Assembly: GCA_003660555.1 (NCBI GenBank)
Contig: QMUK01000016.1
Location: 1 to 18,288, forward strand
Direction of reading: 5' to 3'
From: Thermococci archaeon
Lineage (GTDB): Archaea; Hadarchaeota; B88-G9
DNA: 18,288 nt
In this document: in pieces, positions 815 through 8,906 of the stretch
How the letters are laid out: each line of letters starts with the position of its first letter
Numbering within the stretch: the stretch's first letter is position 1
The notes under the pieces: model-generated
The model's database searches: none
The model's input: the letters and a program-made list of their open reading frames with translations, nothing else
Told to the model about the DNA's origin: nothing
Translations under genes and position numbers: made by a program

Positions 815-1042
815 TTGAATAGGATATTGGAGATCCTCAAAGAGAGAGGGGAGATGAGTACCAAGGAAATAGCAAAAGAAGTTGGACTCGGCATGGGAGA
901 GACCATGAGGATATTGACTAGACTCCTAGAGGAGGGGAAAGTCAGAGCTGTGAGAAGAGAGAGTAGTTGGTTCTGGAAGATAAGGGTCCCAGACGAGGCA
1001 GAAAAGAAAATTGAGAAGATGATTAGGAAAGGCATTCAGTAG
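815..1042 (+). CDS. Small winged-helix DNA-binding protein
   Basis: A 75-residue protein with one predicted winged helix-turn-helix: helix 1 NRILEILKERGEM, then STKEIAKEVGLGMGETMRILTRLLEEGKVRAV (helix 2, recognition helix, wing), then a basic C-terminal helix (EKKIEKMIRKGI). This is the MarR/LysM-like wHTH layout common in small archaeal transcription regulators. The start is TTG at 815, directly after the upstream TAA; GGGGGTGA at 802-809 provides an SD. It forms a two-gene unit with the zinc-ribbon protein, so the pair may act together on DNA or transcription (inference). Its stop overlaps the 3' end of the convergent hef gene by 7 bp. Confidence 0.72.
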   Translation: MNRILEILKERGEMSTKEIAKEVGLGMGETMRILTRLLEEGKVRAVRRESSWFWKIRVPDEAEKKIEKMIRKGIQ

Positions 1043-3228
1043 TTGTTCCCTTCAGTATAGGGTTTGGTGAGGACCTCTCTTATTCTCTTTGCCAATTTCT
1101 CTCCTAGGTTCTTAACTTCAATCAGCTCCTCCTCCGATGCTGTCATAACCCTCTCGACTGTCTTAAATCTCCTTAACAGAGAGTCTGCCAGGGAGGGGCC
1201 AACTCCAGGGAGGGACTCAACTATAAACCTCTGATACTCTTTAGTCCCCATTCTAGGTCTCTTTATTCTGAGAGATATCTCCTTCTTCCCTCTTTCCATC
1301 GCTCTCTTTAGAAGCATGTGTATTATTATGGCAGTCTCCTTTTCATTTCTGGAGAATATAACTGGTATTCCGAAGTCTACTATTAGAGAGATGAGGGCTC
1401 CCAAGTACGAATGAGGGTGCAACCCTCCTCTATAGCCTTCTCCCTCTATCAATAGGATTGGATTTCTATATCTCTTTAGCAATTTCGCTTGTGTGAAGAG
1501 TCTTCCATCTACTATGGATTTGGCGAAATCGTCGCTTCTTTTTCTCTCTATGCAAATTTCATCTGGGAGCAAGTAATCTCCGACTCCGAGTTCGGAGAAA
1601 TCTAGACCTACTCCCAATCTCTCAAGCTCTCTAACTACTTCGGATCCAATTTCCCTGTTGTCTACTATTATTTTCCCTATAGGCTGAGAAGAGAAAGACA
1701 ATAGATCTGGCTGTTGCCCATATTCCTTTGCTTTCCCGAACTTCAATTTGGATAGTTCTTCCCTCATCTTCTCCTCCTTACTCACGCTCACCCAATAATA
1801 AGTCTCGTCCCTAGTACCCTTGGCTACTAAGACCACTACTTTGCCTTTGCCGAATCTACCAGTTCTCCCTCTCCTTTGTATGGATCTTATCTCTGAAGGT
1901 ATGGGTTCATAAAAAACCACTAAATCGACTGAAGGTATGTCTAATCCCTCCTCTGCAACACTTGTAGCCACTAGAACATTGTATTTCCCAGATCTGAACT
2001 TCTCTAGTATTTCCACTTGTTCCTTTTGACTCATGCCTCTTTCTCCAGATCTATTCGCCTGTCCTATGAACGCTATTGGCTTAATTCCTTTTTCATCAGA
2101 GAGTTCATTAACTATCTCCTTCACAGTGTCTCTGTACTGAGTGAAGACTATGGCTCTTTTATCTCCAAATAACTCCTTAGATAATATCCTCTTGAGTTCC
2201 TTCATTTTAGGATGAGATTCGTTTATTCCCTTGAGAATTTCCATTACTCTGGAGAACCTACTGTCTGAGACTAGCTCCCTCAAGGACTTCTGGGCTCCTC
2301 TCCCGAGAGAAGTCTCCTTCAACCTCTCTAAGTATTTCCTCAGTGGGGTGGCTCCTTGAGTTTCAAGTAACTCCAGAGCGTGCATTAGTCTGACTGAGTT
2401 CGCCTGAGCTATTAGTGCTTCTGGATCTCCAGATATTTTGCTAGCCAACTCCAATATTTCCTTCCTACTGACCTTCCTCATATCCCTTGTCTCTAAATAC
2501 CCTTTCTTCTTTAGAACAGATAGATAATCTCTAAGTATGCTTGTTAAAAGAGCCTTAATTTCCCTGAAATTGCGTGGTAATTGGACTCTCCTCCATTCTA
2601 TCTCTATCCTGTGGACATAGGGTCTGACGTCCGGATCTTTCTCTGTTCTAACCTCTAGGTTCTCTATGTATAGGTTTCTCATCACTTCCTCTATCTTTTC
2701 TTTTTCTCCTCCAGGAGATGCCGTTAAACCGAGGATGAGTGGGTTCTCTGCCTCCCTGACGTATCTCTCCGCTATGTATACGTAGGAGTAATTACCAACC
2801 GCTCTGTGTGCCTCGTCGAATATAATTAGAGAGAAATCCCTGAGGTTCAGGTAGCCTCTGATCAGATCGTTCTCTATTACTTGTGGTGTAGAAACTATTA
2901 CCTTGGATGTCTCGTAGAATTCTCTCCTTTTCTCTGGAGGTATCTCCCCAGTGAGCGTTATTACTTCTTCCTCGCTTAACTTAGTCTTCTCGATTATGCT
3001 CCTTCTGTGTTGGTGAACTAATGGTTTAGTGGGTGAGAGAAATAGTATCTTGCCTCCTCTCCTATGGAGGACGTGTACCATCACCATTATAGCTATAATG
3101 GTTTTCCCCAATGCGGTAGGCGCCACAACTAGGGTGTTCTTCTCAGAAGCTTTGGCAGCTATTACCTCCTGGTATATCCTCCTCTCTATTTTCCCCTCTC
3201 TCAGCAGGGGGTGCTCAACGTACTGCAT
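1036..3228 (-). CDS. hef: Hef: FANCM/XPF-type helicase-nuclease fusion
   Basis: A 730-residue three-part enzyme that acts on branched DNA such as stalled replication forks. The N-terminal superfamily 2 helicase carries Walker A APTALGKT (36-43), DEAH (about 138-141), TAS (about 169) and motif VI QRRGRTGRFG, with the long thumb-like insertion of Hef/FANCM in between. Next is an ERCC4 nuclease (about 520-660) with DNRE, GDY and the catalytic ERKRSDD at about 561-567. A tandem helix-hairpin-helix follows (LPGVGPSLADSLL and VKNLGEKLAKRI). All nuclease signature residues are present, so both activities should be intact. I chose the ATG at 3228, not the TTG at 3249, because the TATA element at 3254-3263 lies about 30 bp ahead and Hef proteins normally begin close to this point. 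It is divergent from a second XPF-type nuclease and overlaps the wHTH gene tail to tail. Confidence 0.93.
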   Translation of the reverse strand: MQYVEHPLLREGKIERRIYQEVIAAKASEKNTLVVAPTALGKTIIAIMVMVHVLHRRGGKILFLSPTKPLVHQHRRSIIEKTKLSEEEVITLTGEIPPEKRREFYETSKVIVSTPQVIENDLIRGYLNLRDFSLIIFDEAHRAVGNYSYVYIAERYVREAENPLILGLTASPGGEKEKIEEVMRNLYIENLEVRTEKDPDVRPYVHRIEIEWRRVQLPRNFREIKALLTSILRDYLSVLKKKGYLETRDMRKVSRKEILELASKISGDPEALIAQANSVRLMHALELLETQGATPLRKYLERLKETSLGRGAQKSLRELVSDSRFSRVMEILKGINESHPKMKELKRILSKELFGDKRAIVFTQYRDTVKEIVNELSDEKGIKPIAFIGQANRSGERGMSQKEQVEILEKFRSGKYNVLVATSVAEEGLDIPSVDLVVFYEPIPSEIRSIQRRGRTGRFGKGKVVVLVAKGTRDETYYWVSVSKEEKMREELSKLKFGKAKEYGQQPDLLSFSSQPIGKIIVDNREIGSEVVRELERLGVGLDFSELGVGDYLLPDEICIERKRSDDFAKSIVDGRLFTQAKLLKRYRNPILLIEGEGYRGGLHPHSYLGALISLIVDFGIPVIFSRNEKETAIIIHMLLKRAMERGKKEISLRIKRPRMGTKEYQRFIVESLPGVGPSLADSLLRRFKTVERVMTASEEELIEVKNLGEKLAKRIREVLTKPYTEGNNY

Positions 3229-3253
3229 GATGTACTCAAGATATATCAATGGG

Positions 3254-3263
3254 ATATAAATAT
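3254..3263. promoter_or_regulatory. Palindrome-like bidirectional TATA element between hef and the XPF-like gene
   Basis: ATATAAATAT reads as a TATA box on both strands. The leftward ATG (3228) is about 30 bp from its centre and the rightward GTG (3290) about 32 bp. Both spacings predict leaderless or near-leaderless transcripts, so one element probably drives both nuclease genes. Confidence 0.6.
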
Positions 3264-3289
3264 TCTTGGGGGAGGATTTGAGTAGAATA

Positions 3290-3958
3290 GTGGTGGATAT
3301 ACACGAAGAGGCATCGGGAATTCCAGAAATTCTCGAGAGATTCGGACTTAAAGTCGAGTACTCTAAATTAACTGTCGCTGACTACGTAGTCAGTGAGGAG
3401 TGTGGGATTGAACGGAAAAGAGCCCAGGATTACCTTTCGTCCCTTTTCAGGAGGAGACTCTTTGATCAGTTAAAGAGATTATCAGAGGCCTATTCCAAAC
3501 CCATATTGATAGTAGAAAGGGACCTATGGGAAGAAATAAGAGGGACTAGGATAAGACCTGAGGCAATATGGGGGAGTTTGGTGAAGATATCAGTTGAATA
3601 CGGAGTGAGTGTCTTCCACACCACAGACAAATGGGAGAGTGCCAAACTCATAAGGATAATCCATAACAAGGAGGGGGATACTAGCACAGGGAGAAACGAA
3701 GAAACAATACTGGTGAAGGAATACCCTAGGAAATACACTAGCGAAGACAGACAAATAATGATCCTCAGCTCTCTGCCTGGTGTCGGACCAGAAATAGCTA
3801 AGAGAATGTTGGAAAACTTCGGGAGTCTCAGGAGAATATTTTCTCTCAGAGAAAGGGACCTCGTCAGAATAAATGGAATAGGAAAGAAAAAGGCCAGAGA
3901 GATTGTTCGGCTGATGGATTACGAATATAAAGGGAAGAATAGGAGGTATTTGGTTTGA
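3290..3958 (+). CDS. Short XPF/ERCC4-type structure-specific nuclease with HhH domain
   Basis: A 222-residue stand-alone nuclease of the crenarchaeal XPF type: an ERCC4 domain (about 1-135) followed by tandem helix-hairpin-helix (SLPGVGPEIAKRM near 161; INGIGKKKA near 194). Acidic and basic catalytic positions are kept: Asp3, Glu6, Asp31, and ERKRAQD at 41-47. Two signature positions differ from the usual pattern: the DxRE Arg is His (DIHE) and the GD Gly is Ala (VADY). I see no clear C-terminal PCNA-binding (PIP) motif; the end is NRRYLV. I chose GTG 3290 because the promoter at about 3258 predicts a transcript start near 3284, downstream of the TTG at 3266; the family normally has only a few residues before this Asp. 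Family members cut near ss/ds junctions as dimers. The divergent Hef gene makes a joint repair function or heterodimer plausible (inference). Confidence 0.87.
   Translation: MVDIHEEASGIPEILERFGLKVEYSKLTVADYVVSEECGIERKRAQDYLSSLFRRRLFDQLKRLSEAYSKPILIVERDLWEEIRGTRIRPEAIWGSLVKISVEYGVSVFHTTDKWESAKLIRIIHNKEGDTSTGRNEETILVKEYPRKYTSEDRQIMILSSLPGVGPEIAKRMLENFGSLRRIFSLRERDLVRINGIGKKKAREIVRLMDYEYKGKNRRYLV
3941..3947 (+). promoter_or_regulatory. Ribosome binding site for dtdA
   Basis: AGGAGGT inside the last codons of the nuclease gene sits seven bases before the TTG at 3955. It fixes this TTG as the start and couples translation of the two genes. Confidence 0.7.
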
Positions 3959-4836: not shown

Positions 4837-5943
4837 TTGAAACAAATAGTAGAGGCTGCAACTGGGGAAAAAGAACTCCCAAAGAAGAAGGTTCATCCAG
4901 TAGATGATGAGCTAGAAGAACTCTTACAGAGAGCTAGAGCGAGGATAATCGTGGTAGGGGTCGGAGGGGCTGGGTGCAATACCATAACCAGAATAATGGA
5001 AGTCGGAATAAAGGGTGCAGAGACTGTTGCAATAAACACGGACGCTCAGGACTTACTCTACACAGTGTCAGATAAAAAAATATTAGCAGGTAGGGAGCTT
5101 ACTAGAGGGTTAGGTGCGGGAAACGACCCCAAATTAGGAGAAGAAGCTGCTAGAGAGAGTGAAACTGAAATAAAAGAGGCTTTACAAGGAGCAGACATGG
5201 TATTCATAACAGCTGGACTTGGTGGTGGAACTGGAACTGGAGGGGCTCCAGTGGTGGCTCAAATTGCTAAGAGATTGGGCGCATTGACTGTAGCAGTAGT
5301 AACACTTCCATTTACCGTAGAGGGTTTGGTCAGACAAAATAATGCTGAAATAGGATTAGAAAAGCTCAGAAATAGTGCAGACACCGTTATAGTTATACCT
5401 AACGATAAGCTCTTGGAGGTGGCTCCGAACTTACCGATAGGTGCCGCTTTCAGAGTCGCGGATGAGATACTCACTAGGGCTGTGAAGGGAATAACTGAGC
5501 TAATAACTAAGCCTGGATTAGTGAATCTAGACTTCGCAGACGTTAGGAGGATAATGAGCAAGGGAGGAGTGGCTATGATTGGGATAGGAGAATCAGACAC
5601 AGAGAATAGGGCCGAAGAGGCGGTGAAAGACGCTTTATCTAGTCCACTGCTAGACGTAGACATCTCTGGGGCAAAAGCTGCCCTGATAAACGTCACGGGT
5701 GGCCAAGGGATAACCCTTTCAGAGGCAGAGAAAGTAGTGGAAATCGTCAGTGGACAGATGGATCCAGAGGCCGAAATAATATACGGAGTGCAAATCGACG
5801 ATGAATTGGAAAACACCCTCAGAGTCCTAGTAATAGCATCGGGTGTGTCTTCCCCATACATACTTGGACCTGAAACCGAAATAGAAGTAGAAGAAGAGGG
5901 GGTCAAAAAGAAAATAGACTTGGGAATAAGATATTTGGACTAG
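4837..5943 (+). CDS. ftsZ: Cell division GTPase FtsZ
   Basis: A tubulin-family GTPase that polymerises into the cytokinetic ring at mid-cell. It has 368 residues. After an N-terminal extension (about 1-34) typical of archaeal FtsZ, it shows [12 protein letters not shown] (41-52), the tubulin signature GGGTGTG (129-135), PFTVEG (158-163), [10 protein letters not shown] (168-177) and the T7-loop catalytic motif NLDFAD (230-235), all intact. This looks like the archaeal FtsZ1 group. The C-terminal linker is short and acidic, ending in IDLGIRYLD, which may be the tail peptide that binds a membrane anchor such as SepF (inference; no SepF gene is visible here). The TTG start is set by a strong SD. 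It appears to be transcribed alone. Its TAG stop shares the palindromic CTAG with the stop of the convergent propeller gene. Confidence 0.96.
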
Positions 5944-8906
5944 CCCCTCCTAGTCTTCTTTTTCTTTGCAATGACTTTTTTGCTTGGCCCTTCCGATGGT
6001 CCAGGAGGTGGTACATGATCTACTGTCTCTTGGATTACCCTAACTCTAAGAGTAGCCTCTGATCTCACAGATGTGTCATCTGACAGATGTGCGTAAACTC
6101 TGAGCAGATAAATTCCTGATGGTACTCCCGATGGGGCGAATAAGTTTAACCAGACAGTTTTAGATTCCATGGGAAGTAGGTATATGTCCCTAATTGGGCT
6201 TCCAAGCTCATCGGCAAGCAACACTGGGTATCCCTCCAACGTGAGAGTTTGAGTGAGGATAGTTGGATGGAATCCGACCTCTATTCTCTCAGGTACGTTT
6301 CCGCAGTTTATTACTTCAAATGCTTGTGATTGGGTCATTCCGATTGTTAGTGTTCTTTCCTGTAGTCTCTTGGCTCCTCTCAATCTGTCCTCTGGAGTGA
6401 AGTGGCCCATGGGTATGACGTGAGTTACTAGTACTCCTTTGATTTCCTTAACGTTGGTGTCCATTCTGACTTGTGCCGAACAATTCACTGGTTCGACTGT
6501 GACGTTTGGAGGAACTGCAGAGAGATTCACCCTAGTCAGAAAGTCGACCCAAGTTATCATCCTAGAGGGCTCAGTGTATTTAGGAGGTCTGATCTTGAAT
6601 CTCAGTATAACTTGTTCCCCTGGATCTAAAGTTAGATTCGGTAAACCATTACCATTTGTGTCCCCTATCCTGTTTCCGCTTTGATCCTCTATTACAATTG
6701 ACCAATATGGTGGTTTGCTAAGGGATATCTCCACAATTTCTTGGTAGTTATCGCAATTCTGGATATAGATCTCGTGTATGGCTTCCTCAGGTGAGTGACA
6801 ATCAGTTTCTGGTGAGGAACTCTTCGAGGAAACTTTAGGCTCTGCTAGGATGCAACAATACCCTGGTGGTGGGGGTGGTGGAGGCTGAAATATTTCTCTA
6901 CAGAGGCCGAACCTACTGCGGTCTCCTCTATTGGTGACCCAGAGGCCTATGTATTGATCAACGCTCCCTGGTTGCTCCCATATTCTAACTTCAGAGGAGC
7001 TCTTCCCTACTATCTCTATCCTAGAATCTCCGTCTATGTCTGCTAGCAGCACATCTGACGCGTGTGAGTTGCTTGTTCTCATGCCGTTTAACTGCATGGG
7101 CCAACCTGGCAATGGAGTGCCATCGTGATTTAGGATTACTACTCCGTCCACAGACCATGGGGGAGACCAGACGTAAGTGGCTATTTCAACGTCTCCGTCT
7201 CCGTTAACGTCTCCAAGTGCTGGAGCTATTTCATATAAAGATCCTCCACAATACCCGGATCCCAAATCTACTGGGAATCCTGGGAGTTCGGTTCCAGTAT
7301 TTGCGTCTATGAGGTGGAGATCCCCTCCACACCAATCATCATGTATCGCTACTTCATAGCTTCCATTTCCGTCAAAGTCACATATTGACGGGAAAGTCTG
7401 ACCGTCGAAGTCAGAGTCGGAGAAACAGAATCTCAGAGAACAATCGTGGTCGTAAGAGACTAATCCTCTGCACGGATTGCCGGAAGAGTTCCAGAAGAAC
7501 TCGTAGTAATTATCTCCGTCTACGTCAAGTCCTATGGGCCCTGTCTCATTGTTGCTACCTGTCGCTGTGGTACAGAATTCAGTGCCGTCTTGCTCCCATA
7601 TATACAATCTGGAGTAATCCGTCGTGAATAACTCTAGCACGTTGTCTGAATCAACGTCCCCTATTACTATTGGGTTGTTGAAGGATCCTGAGGGGTTAGG
7701 CCAGCCAGGATAAGTGGAATAAGACGATCCGTCCCAATACCAAACCTTAGCTCCACTTCCTCCAACTATTATCTCCATGTCTCCATCGTTGTCCAGATCT
7801 GCTAGGCTTAGGTCTGAGTCATAACAACCCCCAGGTACTGAGAACCCAGAGCCCGTATCGGGATTGCCAGAAGTGTCGTAAACGAGCATTTGGTTAGTTC
7901 CGGTGCAAACCACTATTTCGACCTCTCCATCACCATCCGTGTCTCCCACAGCTGGGCAGGAATCGTTGCACCCAGGGATAGTAAATAACAAAGTGCCATC
8001 TGTATCGTACACGTCTATTCCAGGACCAGTCCCGAACATGGGGCATCTGTTTATTATTATCTCATATCCTGGATCTGAATCAATTTCTTGATGCAAGTAG
8101 GCTCCGTGTACTCCTCCTACCCATATAGTTCTCTCCAGAGATTGCATTAACTCTACTTTCCTGTTACCGAGGCTTAGTCCCGGAGCGAGTATTCTTGGTA
8201 AACCCGGATCTCCAAACATCTTACTATACTTCGGATGTGGACCGAACTCTATTTCCAGCCGAGAAACATTGAATTCTCTGAAAATTATTGGGTCGTCTCT
8301 ACTTTCATCGAAGGAATAGGTCTCGACCGTTAACTTCCTTGCCTGAATCACTATCTTCCTAACTGGGAACACTTCCGCTTTAATTCCGTTCACATTCACG
8401 TCAATAGGAATCCCTCTGAATATTGCTTGAGGGAACGGTATTTCGTCTTCTATATCTGAGAATTCGTTTTCCCTTCTTCCTGTAGTTAATTCCACCACTT
8501 CACCCTTATCTGTCCTTAGTTTAACCATCCATATCTTCGTTGGAACTTTACCCTCTACCTTAATTCCCTTGGAAGTTAGCTGACCTAACATCTCTTTCGC
8601 CCAATCCACGTCTGGGTTTCTGGGAATCTCAAGTACTGGGAGAGTCCTCTCATCTCCCTCCACTTGCAACGTTGGTACTCGGAAGGTTCCTTCTATCAAA
8701 GTTCCTGTGTCGTCTTCAATAGTCACTTGTATTTCGCTTCCTTTCTCTGCGAATACTCTTGCTGAAACAAATAGTTTTGGCCAAAATCCTAGAGTTTTTC
8801 TGTTCTCTAATCTGGGTAGTTCCCCAGAAAGGGATACTTGCACTAAAGTAGTTGTGGACAACATGAACACCATTGCCATGGCCAGTAAACTCCTTTTCCC
8901 GACCAA
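5940..8906 (-). CDS. Large secreted FG-GAP/VCBS-type beta-propeller protein
   Basis: A 988-residue exported protein of unknown function. Residues 1-28 form a signal peptide (basic start, hydrophobic core [16 protein letters not shown]). Residues 30-255 are beta-rich and unrecognised. Residues 259-645 hold about eight FG-GAP/VCBS-like blades with calcium-binding Asp loops, for example [14 protein letters not shown] (320-333), [14 protein letters not shown] (368-381), [12 protein letters not shown] (565-576) and [13 protein letters not shown] (621-633). A Pro tract (675-681) leads to a beta-rich C-terminal region of about 300 residues, likely Ig-like domains ([19 protein letters not shown]), ending in a basic KKKKTRRG tail. 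About 19 Cys residues, most of them in the propeller, suggest disulfides. I see no C-terminal membrane segment. The start is TTG at 8906, after a G6 run that acts as SD. A role in adhesion or the cell surface is inferred from the architecture. Confidence 0.82.

Follow-up and report, generated by a model that had tools for sequence, protein, structure and literature searches.

In eukaryotes, two ERCC4-HhH proteins occur in one cell in the XPF-ERCC1 and FANCM-FAAP24 systems, and ERCC1 as well as both halves of FANCM-FAAP24 have lost their nuclease function. In archaea, the Hef proteins of Pyrococcus, Thermococcus and Haloferax are full-length molecules composed of a helicase, an ERCC4 nuclease and an HhH domain, with a PIP-like motif in the linker. 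The archaeal short XPF, exemplified by the Aeropyrum protein (2bgw/2bhn) and the PCNA-dependent XPF of crenarchaea, lacks the helicase, and several crenarchaeal short XPFs end in PIP-like tails. Both types can be encoded in one genome, as in Hydrothermarchaeota such as Candidatus Pyrohabitans, where the genes are unlinked and located on separate contigs. An interaction between Hef and PCNA has been reported in Thermococcus, Pyrococcus and Thermoplasma (review PMC7776575).

The window analysed in this work is a complete contig of 18,288 bp that belongs to the 1.3-Mb genome, in 150 contigs, of an uncultured archaeon. Two intact open reading frames are arranged head to head at positions 1036–3249 (minus strand) and 3266–3958 (plus strand), coding for a Hef helicase-nuclease and a short XPF-type nuclease, respectively, and they account for the only two ERCC4 matches of the whole genome. 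Hef would have 737 residues if translated from the TTG at 3249, and its start is likely the ATG at 3228, which gives 730 residues. The short XPF frame comprises 230 residues; its exact start is uncertain and is likely the TTG at 3278 (226 residues). About 49 bp separate these likely start codons, and the interval contains a TATA-like box (TATAAATA, or TATTTATA on the other strand; positions 3255–3262) that reads as TATA-like on either strand and may act as a promoter common to both genes. The stop codon of the short XPF overlaps the start of the downstream gene dtdA, coding for a D-aminoacyl-tRNA deacylase. The possibility of a chimeric contig was discarded, since the GC content (about 0.43) is flat across the Hef/short XPF junction and gives no compositional sign of a join. 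A previous sequence-only reading of this DNA had described two complete, divergently oriented ERCC4-HhH proteins, and the open reading frames, the Pfam domains and the PDB matches all agree with that description.

The Pfam domains detected in Hef are DEAD, Helicase_C, a helical insert, ERCC4 (8e-29) and HHH_5, and its best PDB match is the Hef helicase 1wp9 (3e-148). On the minus strand, the SF2 helicase region (1849–3177), formed by the DEAD, helical insert and Helicase_C parts, carries the motifs APTALGKT, DEAH and QRRGRTGR. The linker between helicase and nuclease contains the PIP-like motif QPDLLSF (1693–1713), and several other Hefs show PIP-like motifs at the same position. The ERCC4 nuclease domain (1315–1665) has an intact GD...ERK...D active site and the tandem HhH domain (HHH_5) occupies positions 1069–1218. 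The fusion of an SF2 helicase to ERCC4 and HhH, the catalytic GD..ERK..D residues and the position of the protein in the Hef group place it in this class. It resembles the Pyrococcus, Thermococcus and Haloferax proteins in its full-length architecture, in all the motifs and in the PIP-like motif of the linker, but differs from them in that its gene and another ERCC4 gene are arranged head to head. The genome also contains one PCNA match and one match to the Hjc resolvase.

In the short XPF, Pfam detects ERCC4 (4e-26) and HHH_5, and the best PDB match is the XPF endonuclease 2bhn (2e-35). The ERCC4 domain (3293–3652, plus strand) has an intact AD...ERK...D active site and is followed by a tandem HhH domain (3764–3907, plus strand). 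With these domains, its size, the presence of the catalytic residues and no helicase, the protein matches the archaeal short XPFs. The absence of a PIP motif noted in the earlier reading was confirmed: no PIP box was found in the protein, whose C-terminus ends in KNRRYLV, and for this reason it is classified as a short XPF and not as the PCNA-dependent crenarchaeal subtype, from which it also differs by grouping with the short XPFs of Hydrothermarchaeota. The same reading had taken the missing PIP motif to fit a partner other than PCNA; this does not single out Hef, since no clear PIP motif is present either in the Hydrothermarchaeota relatives, whose genes are far from Hef.

To read the catalytic positions of both proteins, 80 ERCC4-HhH proteins from archaea were aligned; D, D, ERK and D are kept in Hef and in the short XPF. 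In the latter, the residue preceding the catalytic D is A instead of G, and the D-x-R-E strand has H in place of R; these variants are also present in several relatives. To judge from these residues, both nucleases are apparently catalytically competent. The locus thus resembles XPF-ERCC1 and FANCM-FAAP24 in the presence of two ERCC4-HhH proteins in one cell, but the eukaryotic pairs include one or two dead nucleases, whereas both active sites are intact in the window pair.

The explanation that we consider probable is that two old XPF-family nucleases act separately, their divergent adjacency being a lineage-specific trait and not a conserved two-subunit module. It builds on the domains, the intact active-site residues, the phylogenetic grouping and the lack of conserved adjacency. 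Each nuclease would work as a homodimer, like the solved relatives. Hef would remodel and cut stalled replication forks, presumably tethered to PCNA by means of the PIP-like motif of its linker. The short XPF, a member of the Hydrothermarchaeota-type clade, would have flaps, forks or repair intermediates as cleavage substrates and no PCNA tether of its own, and the divergent adjacency may provide joint expression of both genes.

A survey of 394 archaeal genomes by means of profile matches to Pfam ERCC4 revealed at least two matches in 38 of them (about 10%), the window genome included. Therefore, the co-occurrence of Hef and XPF in one genome, to which the sequence-only reading had drawn attention, is real but not exceptional, and it is less rare than textbooks suggest: the picture of one ERCC4 protein per archaeon fails for roughly a tenth of the sampled genomes. 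In Hydrothermarchaeota and in the window lineage, Hef is accompanied by short XPFs of a distinct clade, and this makes a division of labour testable, with Hef in fork repair and the short XPF in another role.

Adjacency of the two genes has a different distribution. None of the other 37 two-copy genomes has adjacent Pfam-detectable ERCC4 genes, the closest pair being 25.6 kb apart (G037), and none of the loci of 80 named relatives contained another ERCC4 gene within flanks that reached up to 6 kb. Each of the 27 other phylum genomes surveyed, none of them from the same family as the window genome, has one short ERCC4 protein, one Hef-length protein, or none, and a second ERCC4 match was detected in none of the 27. 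The head-to-head pair expected in related genomes is consequently absent from all of these, and the placement of the two genes side by side seems peculiar to one lineage and does not look like a conserved two-part machine. Two points weigh against fully autonomous nucleases. According to a back-of-envelope calculation, two random genes among roughly 1,400 have a chance of about 1/3,000 of being divergent neighbours, so that the adjacency somewhat exceeds the chance prediction even across 38 two-copy genomes; a functional link therefore keeps a modest probability. Besides, the genomes compared belong to other families, and the pair may be conserved over short evolutionary distances.

One such link could be co-regulation without physical pairing, in which a bidirectional promoter would serve both nucleases, for instance under replication stress. 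The location of both starts within about 50 bp around one TATA-like box readable on both strands is consistent with this idea. However, no compared relative has the intergenic region, and the overlap of the short XPF with dtdA suggests housekeeping co-transcription. We regard this explanation as unlikely.

The sequence-only reading had also suggested a heterodimer. Hef and XPF would be preferred or obligate partners through their ERCC4-HhH cores, with the helicase and PCNA contact supplied by Hef and a second nuclease by the short XPF. The adjacency of the divergent genes, with their gap of about 50 bp, is the one positive sign of such a complex; the presence of a PIP-like motif in Hef and of none in the short XPF would fit it, and other archaea do have head-to-head ERCC4 pairs that look heterodimer-like. 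However, neither of the attributes of the XPF-ERCC1 or FANCM-FAAP24 type was found: there is no dead partner, since no catalytic residue has been lost from either active site, and the gene pair is not kept in the relatives compared, none of them of the same family, an absence that the earlier reading had itself named as grounds for refutation. In addition, the proteins most closely related to the short XPF have genes far from Hef. The heterodimer is thus improbable. Slightly more doubtful is its most elaborate form, a doubly active complex expressed from one bidirectional promoter, with helicase and PCNA contact on one subunit, which could cut both fork strands; if true, it would represent an unknown state between the homodimers of archaeal XPF and the asymmetric pairs of eukaryotes.

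The head-to-head pairs mentioned above were found in three genomes of one family (G326, G490 and G532; L077:450-2049, L244:2680-4185 and L245:1610-3095), and in each of them a catalytic short XPF is paired with a dead ERCC4-HhH protein. Their phylum is inferred to be Asgard-type because the RpoB tree puts another member of it, G037, together with Jordarchaeia and Sigynarchaeota. The catalytic partner is a short XPF with GDYI...ERKRGDD; the dead partner, of 230–250 residues, still has the distal ERCC4 and HhH parts but none of the active-site residues. Profile comparison between the sets of catalytic and dead proteins gave a probability of 98.8%. Against the PDB, the dead protein alone matches Hef and XPF only weakly (E 0.04–0.6), and therefore its likeness to ERCC1 is one of architecture and not of demonstrated descent. 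As far as sequences can tell, the Asgard-type pair would be a strong candidate for an XPF-ERCC1-like heterodimer, much better than the window pair. These pairs show that head-to-head pairing can be kept, which is a further point against autonomous nucleases in the window, although the Asgard-type pairs include a dead partner. More divergent ERCC4-HhH-like proteins without active-site residues are also present in two of these genomes (L246:1561-2217 and L247:1776-2480; G490 and G326).

With respect to ancestry, the short XPF joins the Hydrothermarchaeota short XPFs with a support of 99/95 in the ERCC4-HhH tree, and its best matches are short proteins from nine Hef-bearing genomes, most of them Hydrothermarchaeota. 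The window Hef is located inside the Hef group (95/86), where it joins the Hefs of its own phylum weakly (83/81). A local inverted duplication, in which the neighbouring Hef had its nuclease half copied in place to give the short XPF, would agree with the adjacency, with the single short ERCC4 proteins that fall inside the Hef clade in this phylum (so that lone Hef nuclease halves can exist) and with the borderline rejection of the forced Hef/short XPF sister tree (AU test, p = 0.053), but it is very improbable given the 33% identity between the two window proteins versus 40–46% between the short XPF and its best matches, the identity of up to 53% of the Hef domain to another Hef, and the cost of 41 log-likelihood units of holding the pair together. 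Hence, the short XPF probably did not arise as a copy of Hef at this locus, and the groupings do not support the proposed intermediate evolutionary state, understood as a Hef that gave origin to the XPF next to it. One wider group formed by the short XPF clade and the TACK short XPFs was not rejected (p-AU 0.258), and this clade may lie inside or outside the latter. The short XPF may have been retained from an ancestor that had both genes or acquired by horizontal transfer; with the organism unplaced in the RpoB tree, these two origins are not separable.

The single short ERCC4 proteins of the window phylum (L024-L042) suggest a different history. They are mostly 41–49% identical to the window Hef and 31–37% to the window short XPF, and they form one clade with the full-length Hefs of the phylum; the helicase has therefore apparently been lost from Hef. 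Based on these comparisons, such a loss probably took place more than once in this phylum. Many genomes of the phylum also encode separate Hef-like helicases of 567–717 residues without ERCC4 (L213-L223), several of which share a conserved C-terminal region that is not related to ERCC4. Their consideration as degenerate FANCM-like partners was rejected, as their C-termini lack ERCC4 signal. Divergent ERCC4 proteins of about 370–410 residues, with inserts and intact active sites, accompany Hef in further genomes of the Hydrothermarchaeota phylum (L073, L074 and L081).

The two sides of the locus differ in their neighbours. Beyond the 3′ end of the window Hef there are p27-like and UPF0147 genes, which are also next to Hef in Methanolobus, Methanosalsum, G049 and other archaea. 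On the opposite side, dtdA is near no other ERCC4 gene among the loci compared, and a search for a conserved neighbourhood of the short XPF that could serve as a functional clue gave none. For these reasons, the ancestral side of the locus would be that of Hef, and the short XPF side would be specific to the lineage. In another part of the window (5940–8906, minus strand), a 988-residue FG-GAP repeat protein with a signal-like N-terminus is encoded between ftsZ and the secE-nusG-ribosomal protein genes.
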